From positions 1 through 13,863 of the forward strand of contig WAQS01000025.1 in assembly GCA_015520115.1 (NCBI GenBank): a stretch of 13,863 bases of DNA, written 5' to 3'. Positions 4,772 through 12,492 of this stretch are shown here, piece after piece (positions within the stretch are counted from its first letter, which is position 1; each line of letters begins with the position of its first letter). The notes under the pieces were generated by a model, which did not search any database, was not told where the DNA came from, and saw only the letters and a list, made by a program, of their open reading frames with translations. The position numbers were made by a program, and so were the translations under genes. Source of the stretch: Ferroglobus sp. Its GTDB lineage: Archaea > Halobacteriota > Archaeoglobi > Archaeoglobales > Archaeoglobaceae.

Positions 4772-6169
4772 ATGATGGTAGATATTGCTTTGATAAATCC
4801 ACGAGGTAAATTCGAACTCGCTGAAGAGTTGAATTTTGTCTCTCCACCGCTTGGATTGGCTTATCTCGCAGCTGTTCTTAGAAAGGAAGGGTATAAAGTA
4901 AAGATAATCGATGCTATGGCTGAAAGGCTTGATGTGGGGGAAGTTTTGAAGAAAATTAAAGACTGCTTCCTTGTTGGGATTACCGCTACCACCCCCCTCT
5001 TCAAAAGATCTTTAGAATACGCAAAAGAAATAAAGAAAGCGTTTCCCGAAAAATTCGTCATTCTCGGAGGAGTTCACGTAACCTACAGACCTGCTGAAGG
5101 TTTAAAAGAGGCTGATGCCGTGTGTATTGGAGAGGGGGAGAAAACTATCGTTGAAGTCGCTGAAAGGGTTGAAAGCGGAAGGAGCTTGGAAGGCGTAAGG
5201 GGGATTTGGTGGAAAAAGGACAAAAAAATCGTTAAGAATTTGCCGAGGGAGCCTATTTTCGATCTCGATTCTCTACCATTCCCCGCTTTCGACCTCCTTC
5301 CCCTCAACAAGTACAGCTTCATGGAAAGGCGGCTCGAAGAGTTCCCAATGATTACCTCCCGTGGTTGTCCTTTTTCGTGCCTTTACTGCGTCTCATCCAA
5401 GTTTTTTGGTAGGAGGTACAGAAGTAGAAGTGCAGAAAACGTTGTGAAGGAGATGAGCTGGTTGGAAGACGAATTTAAAGCTAAGCACATCGCTTTCAGC
5501 GACGACACGTTCACTTTAAGCAAAAAGAGAGTAGAAAGTATTTGCAAAGAGATAAAAAAGGAGGGAGTGGATTTAACTTGGAGCTGCGCCTCAAGAGCCG
5601 ACACGATCGACAGAGAGCTCGTGAGAATTATGAAAGGGGCGGGATGCACTAAGATATACTTCGGAGTTGAGTCCGCAAGCGAAAGAATTCTGAACTTCTA
5701 CAGAAAAAAGCTCGATCTAAAAGCTGTAGAAAGGGCGATAAGGATTTGCAAGGAAGAGGGGATAGAGACGGTGTGCTCATTCATAATAGGCGCACCGAAC
5801 GAAAGCGAGGATGAGATGAGAAGAACTTTGAAACTCGCGATGAAGCTCGATCCGGATTACGCTCAGTTTTCGATTCTCACACCATATCCCGGCACTGAAC
5901 TTTACGAGATTGCCGAAAAGGAGAACCTCCTGATAACGAAAAATTACGAAGACTACACTGCTGGAAAGCCCGTTATGAAAAACGCCCATTTAAGTCCGGA
6001 GAGAATTAAGGAGTTCCTAAATCACTGCTACATGAAGTTCTACGCCCGTCCGAAGTATCTATTCAAAATGGTTTCATCGAAGAACTTTAAGCTCGTTTAC
6101 AGCATTGTAAAACGATTGCTTTTACCGAAAAACGTGTTCAGTCAGTCTATAGCTGAAAAATTGTGTTGA
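4772..6169 (+). CDS. Radical SAM protein with B12-binding-type N-terminal domain, substrate unknown
   Basis: 465 residues. Residues 1-130 have the Rossmann-like layout of B12-binding radical SAM proteins (VDIALINPRGKF; PPLGLAYLAAVLRKEGYKV; VILGGVHVTYRPAEGL at 96-111; CIGEGE at 118-123). No DxHxxG cobalamin-histidine motif is visible, so cobalamin, if bound, would be base-off without a protein His ligand. The 4Fe-4S site is CPFSCLYC (Cys199, Cys203, Cys206), followed by FSDDTFTL at 242-249 and GVESAS at 298-303, typical of the SAM barrel. Members of this group are often mislabelled BchE; known ones methylate or rearrange lipids, tetrapyrroles or natural products. The reaction here is unknown. 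Monocistronic, with its own promoter. ATG 4772 or 4775 can be the start. Its stop directly abuts the stop of the opposing gene. Confidence 0.9.
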   Translation: MMVDIALINPRGKFELAEELNFVSPPLGLAYLAAVLRKEGYKVKIIDAMAERLDVGEVLKKIKDCFLVGITATTPLFKRSLEYAKEIKKAFPEKFVILGGVHVTYRPAEGLKEADAVCIGEGEKTIVEVAERVESGRSLEGVRGIWWKKDKKIVKNLPREPIFDLDSLPFPAFDLLPLNKYSFMERRLEEFPMITSRGCPFSCLYCVSSKFFGRRYRSRSAENVVKEMSWLEDEFKAKHIAFSDDTFTLSKKRVESICKEIKKEGVDLTWSCASRADTIDRELVRIMKGAGCTKIYFGVESASERILNFYRKKLDLKAVERAIRICKEEGIETVCSFIIGAPNESEDEMRRTLKLAMKLDPDYAQFSILTPYPGTELYEIAEKENLLITKNYEDYTAGKPVMKNAHLSPERIKEFLNHCYMKFYARPKYLFKMVSSKNFKLVYSIVKRLLLPKNVFSQSIAEKLC

Positions 6170-7309
6170 CTATCTTATCCTCACGGCGAACATGTCAGCC
6201 ACGAAAGCGAGTATTGTGATTGTAAATAATGCTCCTCCGATTACAGCAATTTGGGGAATCACCAAAAGGGCAACTCCTATAGGGGATAAGTAGAGAACGA
6301 ACTTTCCGATTTTCATGTTGAACAGATCAGCTATCATCGGCACATCTTCAACTCCAAGCTTGTCGGCATACTTCTCCATCCACGTAATCATCGGGATGAT
6401 ATGGTATTCAGCTCCGATGATCGTCAGAGCTATCCAGCCAGCTAAAAGAAGGTGTGAGTGCTGGAAAGTTAGATCGAAGAATAAGTTCAACGGAGCCAAA
6501 GTTATTCCTGCAAGCCCGAAAATTAAAGCTACAACGAAAAACTTCACGCTAATGTCCAACTCAGCTTCGCTTTCTGGCTTAGAGGCGAGAGTAAGTAGGA
6601 GATTTAAAGCCAACATGTAAAAGCTGAGGACGAAGAGAGTTCCGAAGATCAGCAGAGCTTTTTCCGAATACGCGAAACCGTAGAGCATCCCAACGAGAGC
6701 GACGTTTGATATTACGAATGTCGCCCAACCTAGTTTCTGACTTCTGAGCTTCCTCAGAGAGAGCATTGGAAATAGTTCGTACAGTCCTCCAAAGGTCGTT
6801 AATCCTATCCATCCCGCAGCCAAGAGGTGAGCGTGAACACGGATGTTGAAGGTGAGAATTCCCGAAAATGCTAAGAGCGCGTACACTACTCCAGCTAAGT
6901 AATAGATTATGGCTGCGGCAAAAAACCAGACCGCTATGCTTGGAGAAAGTCTTGCCGAGGAGATTGTCAGAAAGATTACTATCGCAAATAATATCGCCCC
7001 TAAAGTGTAAACAGCTGCGGAAATAGAGAAATCCACGATACCGCGCATAGAGAGCGCCAAAAGCACCGTGCCAAGATTTAAGAGGTAAAAACTTCCTTCA
7101 GCAAGAGATTTTCCCCTCAACTCCGTTCCGAGTATTGTCGGGACTATCTGATACATCGCTCCTACAATAGTCAAGCTTACAAAACCTGCGAGCATTAAAT
7201 GGGAGTGTACTGGTTTGAAGTAAAATCCGAAGAGGTTGAGAATACCCAAAAAAGCTGCTACTACCAAGTAAACCAGAGCGGAGTATAAAAATTTCAAGGC
7301 TAAATTCAT
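6170..7309 (-). CDS. 12-TM heme-copper-oxidase-subunit-I-like membrane protein with triplicated HxH motif
   Basis: This 379-residue protein is almost entirely hydrophobic, with about 12 predicted membrane helices that group as three units of four. Each unit holds the same motif HxHLxxAG(W/F)xxLTxxGxxYxxxP, at 35-57, 159-181 and 284-306, spaced 124-125 residues apart. The 12-helix, three-fold layout and the HxH...G...G..Y..P pattern resemble subunit I of heme-copper oxidases and NO reductases (cbb3-like) and NnrS. It lacks an HPEVY-type copper ligand motif and an HH pair, and no subunit II gene is adjacent, so a working terminal oxidase is unlikely. Heme or metal binding by the six His residues is inferred. 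The start ATG at 7309 is one base after the ScdA_N stop, with GGAGGT upstream. Last gene of its operon. Confidence 0.8.
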   Translation of the reverse strand: MNLALKFLYSALVYLVVAAFLGILNLFGFYFKPVHSHLMLAGFVSLTIVGAMYQIVPTILGTELRGKSLAEGSFYLLNLGTVLLALSMRGIVDFSISAAVYTLGAILFAIVIFLTISSARLSPSIAVWFFAAAIIYYLAGVVYALLAFSGILTFNIRVHAHLLAAGWIGLTTFGGLYELFPMLSLRKLRSQKLGWATFVISNVALVGMLYGFAYSEKALLIFGTLFVLSFYMLALNLLLTLASKPESEAELDISVKFFVVALIFGLAGITLAPLNLFFDLTFQHSHLLLAGWIALTIIGAEYHIIPMITWMEKYADKLGVEDVPMIADLFNMKIGKFVLYLSPIGVALLVIPQIAVIGGALFTITILAFVADMFAVRIR

Positions 7310-7310
7310 T

Positions 7311-7487
7311 TTAGACCTCCTCTATCTCTCTGATGAGGTCCTCCACTTTTAACCCTCTAAATTCCGCCGCATCTTTAATCTTCACGTTACCTCCACAACA
7401 GTCACAAATCCCGTACTTAAAAAGAACTCTTTTAGCAGCGGGTTTTTTCCTTAAAACTTCCGCAACCGTCATATCCGGAGAGATCAT
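7311..7487 (-). CDS. Free-standing ScdA_N (DUF542) domain protein
   Basis: This 58-residue gene runs from ATG at 7487 to TAA at 7311-7313. The protein has PDMTVAEVLRKKPAAKRVLF followed by KYGICDCCGGNVKIKDAAEF (Cys28, Cys30, Cys31) and GLKVEDLIREIEE. MTVxEVLxxxPAAxxVLxxYGIxxCCGG is the signature of ScdA_N, the N-terminal domain of the RIC/YtfE/ScdA di-iron proteins that repair iron centres after nitrosative or oxidative stress. Here the hemerythrin-like part is absent and the domain stands alone. A GGTGAT site overlaps the TAG of the DUF2249 gene and sits five bases before the ATG. Both neighbours are one or two bases away, so it is translated as part of the operon. An extra Cys (Cys28) precedes the usual CC pair. 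Confidence 0.88.
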   Translation of the reverse strand: MISPDMTVAEVLRKKPAAKRVLFKYGICDCCGGNVKIKDAAEFRGLKVEDLIREIEEV

Positions 7488-7489
7488 AA

Positions 7490-7990
7490 CTAATCACCTT
7501 CCACTTTTATGTACCTCGTAACGTCGACGATTCCTCCCTTCCTCCTCTTCTTTTCAGCGAGTATCTTCATAACCTCCTCGTACTTGTCCCCCAAGCATTT
7601 TTCAGCATAGCTGCACCACTCTACGCAGCTGTCTATTTCGAATATCACTTCCTTTCCACAGTTCTCGCAAACTCCTTTTATCTCGTCCGTCCACCTCTCG
7701 ATGTCAGCTCCGCAGTAGGGACATTTCACGATTTCAAGGGACGGTCTGAAGATCGTCGACACTCCTGGACAGCTTCCCGGGACGATCTCCGGCTCTCTTA
7801 TTTCAAGTTTTACGTATCCGTCTTCTTCTTTATACTTTACGATATACCCTTCATCGTGAAGTTTCTTTATTAAAGGTTCGGGCTTCGCCTCTATGATAAC
7901 ATCCAAGTTACCTACCTCACGAACCTTCTCAAGAATTAAACTGAACCTCTTATCCCTATCCATTCCCCTTACGTCCAAAACCTCTACCAT
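7490..7990 (-). CDS. DUF2249 domain fused to a zinc ribbon and Cys-rich tail
   Basis: 166 residues. Residues 1-65 form a DUF2249 (TusA-like) domain: VEVLDVRGMD, then NLDVIIEAKPEPLIKKLHDEG and a C-terminal strand. After a linker with Cys74, a zinc ribbon has CPYC at 90-93 and CENC at 108-111. The tail has Cys122, Cys126 and Cys132 in SCVEWCSYAEKCLG, a short Cys-rich motif, followed by a basic helix. The LDVRG strand lacks the sulfur-carrier Cys of TusA. Function is unknown; metal binding is likely from the Cys pattern. The open frame runs on to 8020, but the ATG at 7990 fits GGAGGG upstream and begins the DUF2249 fold, two bases after the previous stop. Confidence 0.85.
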   Translation of the reverse strand: MVEVLDVRGMDRDKRFSLILEKVREVGNLDVIIEAKPEPLIKKLHDEGYIVKYKEEDGYVKLEIREPEIVPGSCPGVSTIFRPSLEIVKCPYCGADIERWTDEIKGVCENCGKEVIFEIDSCVEWCSYAEKCLGDKYEEVMKILAEKKRRKGGIVDVTRYIKVEGD

Positions 7991-7992
7991 GT

Positions 7993-8193
7993 TCAAGCCC
8001 TCCTTATTCGGACAATCCACTTTTCCCCATCAAACCTCGACTCGCAAACGTAGCCTTTCTCCCTTAGCATAGCCATCAGCGGCTTAGGTTCCACCTCAAC
8101 TATCAGCTCCAATTCTCCGTGCTCCTGCAGTTTCTTCATGACAAGAGGAGGTCTCTCCGGATGAGGTAAACCTCTAACGTCAAGTCTTTCCAT
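7993..8193 (-). CDS. DUF2249 single-domain protein
   Basis: About 66 residues, a complete DUF2249 domain: MERLDVRGLPHPERPPLVMK, then ELELIVEVEPKPLMAMLREKG and the EKWIVRIRR closing strand. It is a tandem paralogue of the DUF2249 part of the next gene. The fold is related to the TusA/SirA sulfur carriers, but where TusA has CPxP this protein has HPER, so persulfide transfer through that residue is not expected. Possible starts are GTG 8202, ATG 8199 (overlapping the MIP18 stop as TGATG) and ATG 8193. I prefer 8193 because GTGAT then sits four bases upstream, the spacing used by neighbouring genes. The role of DUF2249 is not established; the family often occurs beside hemerythrins and respiratory or NO-related genes. 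Confidence 0.82.
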   Translation of the reverse strand: MERLDVRGLPHPERPPLVMKKLQEHGELELIVEVEPKPLMAMLREKGYVCESRFDGEKWIVRIRRA

Positions 8194-8198
8194 AACCA

Positions 8199-8471
8199 TC
8201 ACTTCGTGAGCAGCTTGTTAAGCTCCTCCTCTTTCACGTATCCGGTAACCTTTACTTTCGCTTTAACTCCCAAATCTTCCACGCTTCGCTTTATAGCGAA
8301 GGCAAGCTGCTGACCTATAGGACAGAAGGGCGAAGAAGGGCGGAACGTGATGTGAACTTCGTTATCTTTAACTTCAAGTTCCTCGATCAACCCCATCTCC
8401 CAAACATTCTGTCTCGTGTGAGGGTCTATAACCTTCTTCAACTTCTCAACTACTTCCTCCTTACTCACCAT
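8199..8471 (-). CDS. MIP18/DUF59 family Fe-S assembly-type protein
   Basis: This 90-residue MIP18 (DUF59) domain has DPHTRQNVWEMGLIEELEV at the start, a strand VHITFRPSSPFCPIG containing the conserved Cys50 in FCPIG, and an amphipathic helix QLAFAIKRSVEDLGV followed by VKVTGYVKEEEL. Relatives (SufT, PaaD, human CIA2/FAM96) take part in maturing Fe-S or other metal centres, so it may load a metal centre in an operon partner; that is inferred. It is first in a five-gene operon. The ATG at 8471 is preceded by GGTGGTAAGGT and, about 36 bases up, a TATA element. Confidence 0.88.
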   Translation of the reverse strand: MVSKEEVVEKLKKVIDPHTRQNVWEMGLIEELEVKDNEVHITFRPSSPFCPIGQQLAFAIKRSVEDLGVKAKVKVTGYVKEEELNKLLTK

Positions 8472-8503
8472 ACCTTACCACCAAAGAAGCTTTGTTCTCA
8501 AAC

Positions 8504-8510
8504 TATAATA
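8504..8510 (-). promoter_or_regulatory. TATA box of the MIP18-DUF2249-ScdA_N operon
   Basis: The minus strand reads GGCTATTATAGTTTGAG, with TATTATA 33-39 bases before the ATG at 8471. Unlike the leaderless promoters nearby, this spacing leaves a leader of roughly 10 bases that just holds the GGTGGTAAGGT ribosome binding site. A short T-run (GTTTTTC on the minus strand, 8521-8527) lies between this box and the livF stop and could end the transporter transcript; evidence for that is weak. Confidence 0.5.
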
Positions 8511-8532
8511 GCCTACTCCCGAAAAACTTAGG

Positions 8533-9201
8533 TTAATCAATGAGAAGATATCTTTTCAGCTCCTTTTCGAAGTTTTCTTCAATTACGCTTACGATTTTCC
8601 CGCTGAGTATGCTGTAAACCCTGGTTACGTACGGAAGAACGCTTTCAACCCTTTCATGGGTTATAATCGCTATTCCCATCTCCTCAGATTTTTTTACGAG
8701 AATTTTCAGAACTCTCTCAAAAGCTTTTTCCGAGAGTCCAGCGAAAGGCTCGTCGAGGAGTAGGTACTTCGGCTTCGAAATAAGACTTCTTGCCAAAACA
8801 ACAAGCTGTCTTTCTCCTCCACTTAAATTTCCGGCTTTTAACTTTAGAAGCTTTTTTAATTCTGGAAAAAGTTCCACAGCCTCGTTAACATCTCCGGTAA
8901 TCGCCAAATTTTCTTTCACGCTGAGGTTCTCGGCAACCCTCATTTTTTCTGGGGAGTAAACTACCCCAAGTCTAAACCTCTCGTGAGCCTTCATTTTACT
9001 CGCATTAACTCCATCGACGAAAACGTTCCCGCTGTGTTTTAGTATTCCAGCGATGCACTTAAAAAAAGTAGTCTTTCCGCTTCCGTTCGGTCCAAGTAAA
9101 AGTACGATTTCACCTCTCCTCAGTTCAATGTGGCAGTTTTCAAGAACTTTCTTTCCGTCAGCATGATAGCTTATTCTTTCAGCTTTCAACAATTTTTCCA
9201 C
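8533..9201 (-). CDS. livF: Branched-chain amino acid-type ABC transporter ATPase LivF
   Basis: This is the second cytoplasmic ATPase of the importer, up to 222 residues. Counting from GTG at 9201: Walker A GPNGSGKTT at 37-45, VVYSPEKMRV at the Q-loop position (LivF-type PE in place of the usual Gln), signature LSGGERQ at 126-132, Walker B YLLLDEP at 146-152, and H-loop His182 in IITHE. The PE Q-loop and the full LSGGE separate it from LivG. The start is uncertain: GTG 9201 gives a 23-base overlap with livG, but GGAGGGTGG lies better placed for TTG at 9192 or 9189. It ends with TAA at 8533. Last gene of the five-gene transporter operon. Confidence 0.92.
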   Translation of the reverse strand: MEKLLKAERISYHADGKKVLENCHIELRRGEIVLLLGPNGSGKTTFFKCIAGILKHSGNVFVDGVNASKMKAHERFRLGVVYSPEKMRVAENLSVKENLAITGDVNEAVELFPELKKLLKLKAGNLSGGERQLVVLARSLISKPKYLLLDEPFAGLSEKAFERVLKILVKKSEEMGIAIITHERVESVLPYVTRVYSILSGKIVSVIEENFEKELKRYLLID

Positions 9202-9823
9202 CCTCCATCTTCAAAAAGCGATCAGCTAAGTTTGAGAGAATCCCTCTTCTGTGGGAGGTTATTATCATCGTCAAGCCCTCTTCCCTCAGCCTCTCTATTT
9301 TCTCCCTAACTTTAAAGACGTTTTCCACATCAAGCCCAGCAAAGGGCTCATCCAAAAGCAGAACTCTTGGATTCGTTGCATACGCTTTCAGAATCTCAAG
9401 AAGCCTTGACTCTCCGTGGGAAATAAACTCGACTTTTCTCTCCGCTATGTAATCTAAATCCCAGTCTCTTAGCATCTTTCTCGCAAGCTTGAAGGATTCG
9501 TCAACGCTGTGATAATTCATTAAAACGACTGCAAGGTTTTCCAAAACAGTCATCTCCCTAAAGTTTCTCGGAATTTGAAAAGCGTAAACTACTCCGAGCT
9601 TGACCATTTTTTCTGGAGGCAATGCTGTCACGTCCAGATCGTCAAGAAAGACTTTTCCGCAGCTTGGAGTTTCTATCCCGGCTATTATCTTCATTAAAGT
9701 ACTCTTACCGCTTCCGTTCGGTCCAAACAATCCGAGGGTTTCTCCATCCTCAAGGTCGAAGCTCACGTTTTTAAGGATCATAACTCTTCCCTTAGACTTT
9801 GAGACGTTCCTGACCTTTAGCAT
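9179..9823 (-). CDS. livG: Branched-chain amino acid-type ABC transporter ATPase LivG
   Basis: 214 residues, shorter than the usual LivG of about 240-255; the extra C-terminal segment is missing. Walker A GPNGSGKST is at 34-42, Q-loop AFQIPRNF has Gln83, the signature is SHGES at 135-139 in the LivG-type context ISHGESRLLEILKA, Walker B VLLLDEP is at 154-160, and H-loop His191 is in ITSHR. The segment VTALPPEKMVKLGVVYAFQ and TVLENL is characteristic of LivG. A frame from TTG at 9838 is open, but the ATG at 9823 follows GGGTGGGTGT and gives the normal start. It overlaps the 3' end of livM by 32 bases. It pairs with LivF to power the two permeases. Confidence 0.93.
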   Translation of the reverse strand: MLKVRNVSKSKGRVMILKNVSFDLEDGETLGLFGPNGSGKSTLMKIIAGIETPSCGKVFLDDLDVTALPPEKMVKLGVVYAFQIPRNFREMTVLENLAVVLMNYHSVDESFKLARKMLRDWDLDYIAERKVEFISHGESRLLEILKAYATNPRVLLLDEPFAGLDVENVFKVREKIERLREEGLTMIITSHRRGILSNLADRFLKMEGGKIVES

Positions 9824-10649
9824 ACACCCACCCGCCAATCTTCGGTGAGAAAATTAAAAGCATCGCATACAATAGAAGATGCGCTCCGGTAAGCAGAGCG
9901 TTCAGGTAGCTTGAGATAAGGAAGAGGACTATAGAGGTAAAAGCTATGTATTCCTTTCTCCCTCCGGTTACCACGTAAGAAATAAAGGGGAATACGCTAA
10001 CCTCAAGGGAAAAGATTTCCGGGGAAACGTGGGAAAAATATAAGGCGAGGGACAAACCCGCAAATGATCCTATCGCAGAGGAGATCACCGAAGTCGTTAA
10101 CTTAACCTTCTCGACCTCAATTCCCACAGCTCTCGAAGCGAGCTCATCTGACTTTATAGCCCTCGCAAAGTAGCCAAGCTTACTCTTCAAAAAGCTCTCG
10201 AACACTATCGCAGAAGCTACGAAGGAAAAGGATGAGAAGAGAAGGGATGGTAGATCGTGTAAAATGAAAAATCCTTCTTCTCCTCCCCTCTCCCCGATAA
10301 CGATGTAAGGGGCTATTACGTAGGATAGAAGTGAAAGCGTAAAGGTGGCGAAAACAAAAGCCGTTTTACCAGTCGTTCTTTTGAGAATATAGAAGAGGAT
10401 TGCGCTCAAAGGAATGGAAATCAGAAAGCCGGCTGCAAGTGAGTTAAAAAGCAAGTAGGTTATTGCTGAAAGGTACGCTGATGAGCCAACAACAAAGGAG
10501 TGTCCCATGCTCACCCTGCCTTCGTTCTCAAGTATCGCCCATGAAATTGAGATCGTCGCGTAAATAAGCGCGAGACCGATTAGCCATGAGACGTACCCCT
10601 TTAAAAGGAAGGGTAAGAGAGCTGCTACAACATACATCAGAAATCTCAA
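9792..10649 (-). CDS. livM: Branched-chain amino acid-type ABC transporter permease LivM
   Basis: 285 residues with about eight to nine membrane helices. Family marks are LENEGRVSMGHSFVVGSSAY (the NLxxGxxGxxSxGHxxF region), and the cytoplasmic coupling loop RAIKSDELASRAVGIEVEKV (EAA-like AxxxxExAAxxxGI) near residue 170-190, followed by FSHVSPEIFSLEVSVFPFISYVVTGG. It is somewhat shorter than typical LivM. The start is TTG at 10649: GGAGGTG lies five bases upstream, and the codon overlaps the livH TGA (TTGA). The next in-frame ATG at 10637 has no such site. Its 3' end overlaps livG. Confidence 0.88.
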   Translation of the reverse strand: MRFLMYVVAALLPFLLKGYVSWLIGLALIYATISISWAILENEGRVSMGHSFVVGSSAYLSAITYLLFNSLAAGFLISIPLSAILFYILKRTTGKTAFVFATFTLSLLSYVIAPYIVIGERGGEEGFFILHDLPSLLFSSFSFVASAIVFESFLKSKLGYFARAIKSDELASRAVGIEVEKVKLTTSVISSAIGSFAGLSLALYFSHVSPEIFSLEVSVFPFISYVVTGGRKEYIAFTSIVLFLISSYLNALLTGAHLLLYAMLLIFSPKIGGWVYAKGQERLKV

Positions 10650-11338
10650 ACGAACACCTCCAAAAACATTGAAGCTGCCAGAGAGACTGCGGTAATGTTC
10701 ACAAGATTTCTCTCCCCGACGGATCTTTTTATCGTAGCAATGGCGGCTATTAAAATTCCAGCGAGCATGTAGCTTAGCCCTATTCTCGGGTGAATGGCAG
10801 CTCCCTCACTCGAAACTACTCCAAGAAGAATTGCAAAGAAAGTTGCGATGAAAATAGATGCAAAGCCGTAAGCAGCCGAATTAACTCCGCACATCCTAGC
10901 GAGCTCCTCATCCTCCTCTATAAACTTCAGCCTTATTCCGTGGGGGGAGAGGTAGAAACCTATTAGAAGTAAATAGGAGGCGATAAAAACCTCTGGAAGA
11001 GCTCTAACTCCTTCGCTAACGACGTAGTAGTATCCCTTTTGCACACCTATTCTCAAAATTTCTTCTATCGCAATCCCGTAGCCAAGGCTGACTATCGTAG
11101 CATCCATGACACCTCTGCAAATTCTCTCTTTGATCAAAAAAAGCGGATAGGCTATTAGAAAGCTTAAAAGAAAAGCTAAAATAACCGACAACTCTCCGAA
11201 AAAGTAGACGAGGTATGCGCCTACCGAAAAGGCAGAGTATAGAGAGAGATTCAGAAATTTTCCGATTCTGAAATTAAAAGAAATTAGGGAAGCGAATACC
11301 GAGAAGATGAAAAAGTTTTCGAGGAAAGTTAAGGCCAT
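10646..11338 (-). CDS. livH: Branched-chain amino acid-type ABC transporter permease LivH
   Basis: 230 residues with about six to seven membrane helices, well below the usual 285-300 for LivH. Recognisable parts are LNLSLYSAFSVGAYLVYFFG (matching LNFAxGxxxxLGAY), DATIVSLGYGIAIEEILRIG, the coupling-loop region EEDEELARMCGVNSAAYGFA, and IGLSYMLAGILIAAIATI near the end. Sequence conservation is lower than for the other subunits, so the call rests on context as well as motifs. The ATG at 11338 is preceded by AGAGGTTGT and overlaps the end of the lipoprotein gene by 10 bases. Confidence 0.85.
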   Translation of the reverse strand: MALTFLENFFIFSVFASLISFNFRIGKFLNLSLYSAFSVGAYLVYFFGELSVILAFLLSFLIAYPLFLIKERICRGVMDATIVSLGYGIAIEEILRIGVQKGYYYVVSEGVRALPEVFIASYLLLIGFYLSPHGIRLKFIEEDEELARMCGVNSAAYGFASIFIATFFAILLGVVSSEGAAIHPRIGLSYMLAGILIAAIATIKRSVGERNLVNITAVSLAASMFLEVFV

Positions 11339-12492
11339 ACAACCTCTGACGTTTTGAACTCTTCTGGGTACACAACCTCTATCTTTCCGTTAACGTACTC
11401 CCCTATGATTCCCTTAAGCTTTTCGCTACCCCATATAGCTTGGTGTTTGTCGTCGAACTTGTAAATCCCAGCTGCTCCTTTGAACTCTCCCTCTTCAAGA
11501 TTCTTAACGAGATCCTTGTTCTTTTCGTAAGCTTGGGCGATGATCAGAATAGCGTCGTAGGTGAGTAAAGCGGCGTAGTTGTTTGCCTCTTCGCCGAACT
11601 TCTCCCTATATCCGGAGAAGTACGCTGCTGTAAGTTCGGTCTTTTTAGTGTTTTCCAAAGCGGCAGCTTGGAAGGCGATGTAATTCTGATCGAGCTGCTT
11701 TAGTGTTTGTGGTAGCGCAAGTACTCCTCCGACGGAGTAAATTATCCCCTTCCCCCCGCTGTTTCTGTACTCCTTCACGAACGTGACAGAAAGCGTTCCC
11801 GGATCTCCGAGGATGAGAACATCTTTTTCCCCAACGACCTTGGCAGCTTCTCTGGCTTTTTCCACAACATCCTTCGGATCTACAGCTGGAGACTTGTAAA
11901 AGCTCACGCCTTTGCCCTCAACTCCGCTTGCGTTAATCTTCTTCAGCATCCCTAAGTTGAATATCTTAAGGGGATCGAAGCCGACGAAGTAGAAACCTTC
12001 AGCCCCAGATATTTTCAAAAATTCAGAGGCAAGTTCTCCCCAGTAGCTCGTATTGTATGCGTTTCTGAAGACGTACTTGTTACCCTCCTCAACCATCTTT
12101 TCAAGCTGTTCAGTGGACGCTACGCTCGCTATATAAACAGTCTTTGTTTCTCCAGCCACTTTCGCTGCTGCTATCGCTTCAGGACTCGAATAAGCTCCAA
12201 CAACAGCCACTACACCTTTCTCAACAAGCTGTCTGAAGGCTGATTCAGCCCCTTCAGGAGAAGATTTCGTGTCTGCAAAAATCAGCTCTATCTCATACTT
12301 AGAAAGCTTGAACTTCTCAGCGTGCTCTTTAGCGAGCAATGCAGCGTTTTTCATGGCTTTTCCGGCGGTTGCAAATTTACCGGTCTCTGGGATTAATACG
12401 CCAATTTTTAGCGTCTCTTTCCTTTCTGCACAACCGGGAAGAATCGTGGCGAGAGTAATAAGCATTATCAGCGTTAAAGCCTTGGCTCTCAT
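11329..12492 (-). CDS. Branched-chain amino acid-type ABC transporter substrate-binding lipoprotein
   Basis: 387 residues, a periplasmic-binding-protein type I fold (Leu/Ile/Val-binding family). Residues 1-17 form a hydrophobic signal segment followed by the lipobox LPGC at 18-21 (Cys21), so it should be anchored outside the membrane. The mature part starts with LKIGVLIPETGKFATAGKAM, followed by FADTKSSPEGAESAFRQLVEKGVVAVVGAYSS and later YFSGYREKFGEEANNYAALLTYDAI, all typical of the family. The exact ligand cannot be read from the sequence; branched-chain amino acids, other amino acids or aromatic acids are possible. First gene of the operon, with a TATA element 24-31 bases before the ATG. 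Confidence 0.93.
   Translation of the reverse strand: MRAKALTLIMLITLATILPGCAERKETLKIGVLIPETGKFATAGKAMKNAALLAKEHAEKFKLSKYEIELIFADTKSSPEGAESAFRQLVEKGVVAVVGAYSSPEAIAAAKVAGETKTVYIASVASTEQLEKMVEEGNKYVFRNAYNTSYWGELASEFLKISGAEGFYFVGFDPLKIFNLGMLKKINASGVEGKGVSFYKSPAVDPKDVVEKAREAAKVVGEKDVLILGDPGTLSVTFVKEYRNSGGKGIIYSVGGVLALPQTLKQLDQNYIAFQAAALENTKKTELTAAYFSGYREKFGEEANNYAALLTYDAILIIAQAYEKNKDLVKNLEEGEFKGAAGIYKFDDKHQAIWGSEKLKGIIGEYVNGKIEVVYPEEFKTSEVVWP

Follow-up and report, generated by a model that had tools for sequence, protein, structure and literature searches.

What function could be served by an operon in which small soluble proteins of the MIP18, DUF2249 and ScdA_N families are joined to a membrane protein resembling respiratory oxidases? 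The question is raised by a stretch of 13,863 nucleotides (the window hereafter; contig WAQS01000025.1 of GenBank assembly GCA_015520115.1), which is contig 25 of a draft genome of Ferroglobus sp. (G000; 1.65 Mb, 91% complete). Reading of open reading frames (ORFs) together with Pfam places five tightly spaced genes on its minus strand, from 8471 to 6170. A sequence-only reading of the window had listed them as MIP18, two DUF2249 proteins, a lone ScdA_N and a 12-helix oxidase-like protein, a list borne out by Pfam and an AlphaFold model, and had guessed at a membrane module dealing with nitric oxide (NO) or O2. The interpretation to which we lean, with moderate confidence, is a denitrification-linked, NnrS-like module for defence against NO, which would protect or rebuild iron centres; the guess at function is now better founded than before.

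A Membrane Protein with Three Histidine-Bearing Units

The membrane protein belongs by fold to the heme-copper oxidase (HCO) superfamily. The COX1 model matches it well above the cut-off (Table 1), a profile of 20 relatives matches CcoN of cbb3 oxidases (E 5e-11), and an AlphaFold model built from five sequences (predicted local distance difference test 88.2, predicted template modelling score 0.88) has 12 long helices; the helix count is taken from this model, the hydropathy plot having broken into 17 stretches. Six of the seven histidines lie in HxH motifs, H35/H37 in helix 2, H159/H161 in helix 6 and H284/H286 in helix 10, and in each motif the two residues stand 22 and 20 positions before a proline, the same spacing in every four-helix unit.

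In oxidases and NO reductases (NORs), the HH pair of helix 7 provides the ligands of CuB or FeB. Helix 7 of the membrane protein (191-214 in the AlphaFold model) contains no histidine. The protein therefore lacks a conventional CuB or FeB site and falls outside the known types of oxidase and NOR; a terminal oxidase and a classical NOR are thereby ruled out. NnrS proper is ruled out as well, as PF05940 gives no match up to E 1 and comparison of the NnrS profile with that of the family reaches a probability of only 22. 

In CcoN, H60 (unit 1) and H347 (unit 3) are the ligands of the low-spin heme, and H345 is that of heme b3; all three positions are visible in the profile alignments with the family of the membrane protein. 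The CcoN pattern, with the rule that the second histidine of a unit pairs with the first of the next, gives three equivalent possible bis-histidine sites. The best-scoring stretch pairs unit 1 of the family with unit 3 of CcoN, which makes the correspondence between hemes and histidine pairs ambiguous.

These positions were compared in 107 distinct sequences (12 Archaeoglobales, 81 haloarchaeal and 14 bacterial), five matches of <300 residues (L186, L064, L088, L089, L090) being left out. They were anchored by counting back from the conserved proline; two ways of reading them disagree in 83 cells, and the 30 listed are all in unit 3. H37 and H159 are histidine in 107/107 sequences, and as far as sequence can tell this pair may firmly be called universal. 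For H35/H286, both are histidine in 43 sequences, H35 alone in 21, H286 alone in two and neither in 41; for H161/H284, both are in ten and neither in 97, a pattern that takes only two changes on the tree. In its association with H35, column 286 is first among 327 columns, fourth among 312 without Archaeoglobales, and third among 253 in haloarchaea alone. All six positions are filled in 10/12 Archaeoglobales sequences, and two are filled in 14/14 bacterial ones. These patterns are suggestive of H35/H286 and H161/H284 as further heme sites. Single-unit relatives with four helices have the HxH motif in nine of nine cases, which is what a homotrimer with such sites would require.

A Gene Set That Stays Together

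The sequence-only reading had asked whether related genomes scatter these genes. The core of three stays together: MIP18, DUF2249 and the membrane gene occur as a group in 12/12 sampled Archaeoglobales genomes that have the membrane gene, each time in the order MIP18, DUF2249, (two more), membrane gene, which is beyond chance. The other two do not always follow: in 5/12 the operon has the zinc-ribbon DUF2249 gene and ScdA_N inserted among the core genes, and in 7/12 it lacks both. One of these seven, G031 of the Geoglobus group, has a zinc-ribbon DUF2249 gene apart from the operon (L226, 926-1420, contig C17). The nearest relative of the window genome is G001 (91% identity in the membrane protein), which we take to be Ferroglobus placidus. 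Among 60 genomes including the source, DUF2249 exceeds the cut-off in all nine that carry the membrane protein (G038, a weak match with stops, excluded) and in two of the 51 others.

At 19 haloarchaeal loci read, DUF2249 is found at 16, and a conserved protein of about 200 amino acids (aa) also at 16. The latter has no Pfam match in the two copies scanned, both from plasmid records. It carries a TPTTxFCP motif, and its profile (16 sequences, 13 from the loci read and three from plasmids) matches that of 18 MIP18 proteins with probability 95.7 and E 1e-8; the motif and the profile comparison together indicate a divergent MIP18. Genes of CGCGG-family ribosomally synthesized and post-translationally modified peptides, of the kind modified by radical S-adenosylmethionine (SAM) enzymes, recur beside the haloarchaeal homologues (e.g., L049, L050, L054).

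The alphaproteobacterial sample consists of 13 loci, from 4/34 plasmid records and 9/115 of a second record set. MIP18 occurs at 13/13 (in two frames at L194 and about 4 kb off at L191) and DUF2249 at 12/13. At the Mesorhizobium locus L191, all five gene kinds are present between nosZ and nnrS, DUF1858 standing in for ScdA_N. The membrane gene is accompanied by MIP18 and a weak DUF2249 (23.2 bits) on an Aliarcobacter plasmid, where the stretch fetched contains no denitrification genes. In the archaeon G066, NifU, ScdA_N and a single-unit HCO homologue form one gene run; its four-helix homologues lie beside NifU and ScdA_N (L091, 9518-10380) and beside a ribbon-CVEWC protein related to the one in the operon (L092, 9150-9962), and downstream of the latter pair is a gene that reads as nitrite/sulfite-reductase-like. 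Relatives of the membrane protein occur on plasmids; phage records gave no match and viral contigs no confirmed relative.

Link to Denitrification

The link of the module to denitrification is well supported. Genes for nor, nir, nos or nnrS are present in 13/13 alphaproteobacterial stretches with the set, which lies between hemN/nor and nnrS/nirK, or after nos, or near nor. Among 145 haloarchaeal genomes, 69 have the membrane protein together with NirK, 23 the protein alone, six NirK alone and 47 neither; the protein is thus found in 69/75 genomes with NirK vs 23/70 others (Fisher p 3e-14, uncorrected for kinship). For these counts, 74/75 NirK genomes are over the cut-off, and G107, a weak and partial match, is among the 93 matching haloarchaea and excluded from the 92 in the two-by-two table. 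NirK lies within 20 kb of the protein gene in 26 of the 69 genomes, where about one would be expected for genomes of 3.5 Mb. The genus of the window has NarG and a norB-like gene; NosZ over the cut-off is found only in G001 among 21 Archaeoglobales and not in the source draft. A membrane module tied to NO or nitrogen oxides is thus upheld by the bacterial and haloarchaeal neighbourhoods and by NirK co-occurrence, and less strongly by an upstream site shared with norC and nosZ (see below), and nothing in the gene neighbourhoods read points to a role for O2.

The same neighbourhoods bear on another interpretation, by which the set would build a metal centre of a denitrification enzyme (FeB or heme in NOR, the CuZ centre with its sulfur in NosZ, or copper in NirK); heme or metal would be donated by the membrane protein, and the soluble proteins would be carriers for iron-sulfur. 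The MIP18 family takes part in iron-sulfur assembly, the sets sit in nor/nir/nos clusters, and hemN immediately precedes the set in several bacterial loci. However, three Geoglobus-group genomes (G002, G014, G023) have the three-gene core without NosZ, NirK, another HCO or an over-cut-off NarG, the 23 haloarchaea above have the protein without NirK, and norQD or nosDFYL are already present in the bacterial clusters; such an assembly role is therefore unlikely. That the set serves nothing but the assembly of NirK, NOR or NosZ is ruled out by the occurrence of the core without these enzymes.

F. placidus converts nitrate to N2O via NO and is reported to do so without NirK and cd1 nitrite reductases (PMC3236036). 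No NirK match was found in G000 and G001, and no cd1 match in 12 genomes. The gap, and the filling of all six histidine positions in most Archaeoglobales sequences, would suit a complex that is itself an enzyme, i.e., a new NO-forming nitrite reductase or NOR. Nevertheless, relatives adjoin NirK and NorB, where such an activity would be redundant, the CuB-type site is missing, and the operon has no electron donor, all of which makes this very improbable. It is also hardly probable that the membrane protein has stayed close to an ancestral heme protein of three-fold symmetry, with one bis-histidine site per cleft, as a fused version of single-unit homotrimers. Supplied by ScdA_N, the 8-Cys protein, DUF2249 and MIP18, it would then form a new nitrite/NO redox enzyme, perhaps the NO-forming nitrite reductase that Ferroglobus seems to lack.

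An Upstream Site Shared with norC and nosZ

Alignment of eight of 11 regions 5′ of MIP18 (L058, L061 and L063 left out) reveals a block, [ACT]C[CT][GT]AA-N4-TTAGGG, just before a TATA-like box. Its right half-site is TTAGGG in five of the eight, TTCGGG in the window and G001, and TTAGTG in G002. With at most one mismatch, a 20-base pattern derived from this block matches G001 13 times vs four for the reversed control, and G000 six times vs two. Seven of the G001 matches are inside long ORFs; the six elsewhere precede the operon, norC, a cupredoxin gene adjacent to nosZ, the gene of a response regulator, a gene that reads as glutamine-synthetase-like, and a small ORF.

In F. placidus, an exact CCCTAA-N4-TTAGGG palindrome precedes the norC start by about 40 bases, nosZ has a one-mismatch copy about 52 bases ahead of its likely start, and the cupredoxin-gene copy has two mismatches; norC and norB are so named on the strength of PMC3236036, the COX1 match and our own reading of the sequence. 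Five sites with at most two mismatches occur in 105 kb of F. placidus, made up of stretches partly chosen by the pattern itself (operon, cupredoxin gene, nosZ, norC and one inside a gene), for which shuffling predicts 0.01 exact, 0.2 one-mismatch and 3.6 two-mismatch sites. The weight of this evidence therefore lies on norC and nosZ, and the operon copy rests on conservation. The CCCTAA-N4-TTAGGG-like site looks like a binding site of a dimeric regulator.

Copies outside the operons aligned include one with one mismatch, 58 bases upstream of the stand-alone zinc-ribbon DUF2249 gene of G031 (L226). In G036 (L063, 2281-2296), an inverted repeat CCCTCA-N4-TGAGGG with two mismatches stands about 42 bases before MIP18. 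On contig C5 of G031, a zero-mismatch 20-base match (L225, 1709-1724) lies about 30 bases before the nearest start reading of an ORF, which reads as a ferredoxin-bearing, sulfite/nitrite-reductase-like protein; its frame is open further upstream, and the match may be intragenic.

The Soluble Proteins

The MIP18 protein scores 53.2 bits with PF01883 (cut-off 23.5) and keeps the PFCP motif; Cys50-Pro51 is invariant in 18/18 aligned sequences. DUF2249 is probably related to TusA, as its model gives 27.9 bits with TusA of the source genome, slightly below the cut-off of 29.5. The zinc-ribbon/CVEWC domain has eight cysteines in each of five operon sequences compared. The ScdA_N protein carries a CDCCGG cysteine pair and gives 32.5 bits with the RIC model TIGR03652 (cut-off 204.7), with no fused hemerythrin domain.

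The sequence-only reading was right that the operon contains no hemerythrin, subunit II or cytochrome c, and no subunit II or cytochrome c adjoins it either, as read from ORFs and Pfam. A split RIC is ruled out by the missing hemerythrin. A stand-alone hemerythrin gene is present elsewhere in the source genome (L220, 1155-1634; contig C10), with a weak copy of the upstream site, at chance level, 33 bases before it.

DUF2249 also invites the view that the set is a sensor, in which DUF2249, like DrpA, and the heme protein would perceive nitrate or NO and signal to a regulator. Thermus DrpA is a DUF2249 protein proposed as a nitrate sensor (PMC6282519), and Haloferax mediterranei induces DUF2249 genes when it denitrifies (PMC11218638). 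The operon has no regulator gene, however, the regulators beside other members are of differing families, and MIP18 and ScdA_N are ill-suited to a pure sensor, so that we hold this to be quite unlikely.

Proposed Function

NnrS is another HCO-like membrane protein found with denitrification genes. In the NnrS-like defence that we favour, the three-unit membrane protein would hold b-type heme via histidine pairs across neighbouring four-helix units, always at H37/H159 and in the Archaeoglobales lineage perhaps also at H35/H286 and H161/H284, and would, like NnrS, intercept either NO or nitrosyl iron at the membrane. Its partners, the four soluble proteins, would act at its cytoplasmic face, where the cysteine pair of ScdA_N could gate or pass electrons, and the 8-Cys DUF2249-ribbon protein, DUF2249 and MIP18 could hand on iron, sulfur or electrons; nitrosylated iron centres would thus be cleared and then rebuilt. 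Heme binding, NO as the ligand, the direction of transfer and the side of the membrane are what we infer here. The soluble proteins may also have iron centres other than those of the membrane protein as clients. A heme protein meeting NO, a thiol gate and iron-sulfur carriers fit the gene set, its contexts and its likely regulation. Precedents are Vibrio cholerae NnrS, which shields the iron pool and prevents dinitrosyl iron complexes without removing NO (PMC9246220), and YtfE, in which a channel leads to the di-iron site and the ScdA_N cysteine pair, lying at its mouth, aids reduction of that site (PMC9052748).

Several observations weigh against such a role. First, the likeness to NnrS is weak at the profile level, as noted above. 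Second, covariation of the histidine pairs on the tree is not significant (H35/H286, 5 to 1, p 0.22; H161/H284, 2 to 0, p 0.5). Third, the Fisher tests for NirK and NarG ignore the kinship of genomes, and six haloarchaeal genomes have NirK without the protein. In 21 Archaeoglobales genomes, including nine hand-picked non-carriers, NarG is present in 8/12 carriers (one in pieces) vs 1/9 non-carriers (p 0.024), a modest link; G013 has NarG and lacks the membrane protein, and the core in G002, G014 and G023 means that the module is not tied to nitrate respiration. Fourth, the upstream pattern shows no clear excess over the reversed control in G014 (5 vs 6) and G031 (7 vs 6), the narG upstream stretch in F. 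placidus has no copy, and the operon copies differ from the norC palindrome by two mismatches (window, G001, G036), one (G003) or three (G014, G031 and, at L061, G037), three-mismatch matches being common by chance.

Comparison with Known Systems

Pei, Li, Kinch and Grishin are said to have described HCO Homology (HCOH) proteins in 2014 and to have proposed a link to denitrification or NO. These share with the present family a 12-helix HCO fold without the full oxidase ligand set, single-unit relatives of four helices and a DUF2249 context, and their definition, a three-unit HCO homologue with a conserved histidine pair, describes the present family through the universal H37/H159. What may be added here is the set followed over archaea and bacteria, the haloarchaeal MIP18 relative, the norC/nosZ site and HxH kept in all three units in the Archaeoglobales lineage. 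NnrS is likewise a multi-helix protein of denitrification clusters, but PF05940 does not match the window protein and the two are separate, adjacent genes in rhizobia. CcoN has the same fold family and counterparts of the helix-10 HxH and the helix-2 histidine, whereas the operon lacks CcoO and CcoP and the membrane protein lacks the helix-7 HH pair and has 379 aa against about 470. RIC/YtfE/ScdA share the ScdA_N domain with its cysteine pair; here, in contrast, no di-iron hemerythrin domain is fused or in the operon, and a heme-type membrane protein is found instead. DrpA/DrpB of Thermus thermophilus also place DUF2249 beside nitrate respiration genes, but the part of the report available mentions no HCO homologue (PMC6282519), and DrpB has 273 aa.

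No published function for this gene set was found in the literature searched, from which subscription journals were mostly absent. The earlier statement that the set has no assigned function holds to that extent, but HCO-homology families and the association of DUF2249 with the HCO superfamily (PMC11218638) are already in print.

Organization of the Locus

The features are collected in Table 1. The sequence-only reading had given gaps of one to five bases, which is close: the first junction (MIP18/DUF2249) is in fact a 4-base overlap, followed by gaps of 2, 2 and 1 bases. These values apply to an ATG start of the zinc-ribbon DUF2249 gene at 7990; its frame of 176 aa opens with GTG at 8020, inside the neighbouring gene, and the ATG, which leaves a 2-base gap, is likelier. 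The single promoter of that reading is matched by a TATA-like box in the aligned block, which suggests one putative promoter before MIP18 for the whole operon.

Directly upstream, on the same strand, are the genes of a liv-type ABC transporter (8533-12492), which comprise two ATPases, two permeases and a binding protein; G001 is arranged alike. A radical SAM gene with a B12-binding domain (4772-6169) is convergent with the membrane gene.

Table 1. Features of the five-gene operon in the window and related sites in G001.
Feature	Position	Strand	Evidence
MIP18/DUF59 (FeS_assembly_P), 90 aa, first gene	8199..8471	-	Pfam PF01883, E 3.6e-14
DUF2249 protein, 69 aa, second gene	7993..8202	-	Pfam PF10006, E 1.8e-9
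DUF2249 + zinc ribbon + CVEWC....C segment, ~166 aa	7490..7990	-	DUF2249 24.2 bits, below cut-off 29.5
Stand-alone ScdA_N (DUF542), 58 aa	7311..7487	-	Pfam PF04405, E 1.8e-11; near DUF1858 too
Three-unit HCO-homology membrane protein, 379 aa, 12 helices	6170..7309	-	COX1 65 bits, cut-off 34.8, in three stretches
Operator-like site CCTAAGTTTTTCGGGAGTAG	8513..8532	-	Immediately before TATA-like box; aligned over 8 upstream regions
TATA-like box	8503-8510		39 bases before first ATG, in block aligning over 8 upstream regions
Palindrome-like sites before norC, nosZ, cupredoxin gene	G001 C1:1153210-1153225, 111884-111899, 111625-111640		

Significance

Genes of denitrification clusters that are scattered under the names hypothetical protein, DUF2249 and metal-sulfur cluster assembly factor, including those of Sinorhizobium meliloti and many haloarchaea, organisms with working genetics, become one recurring module with a testable job. 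If the three-heme reading were true, the membrane protein would offer a glimpse of a possible common ancestor of oxidases and NORs. The module suggests that heat-loving and salt-loving archaea and root-nodule bacteria have in common an element of their handling of NO to which no function has yet been assigned.

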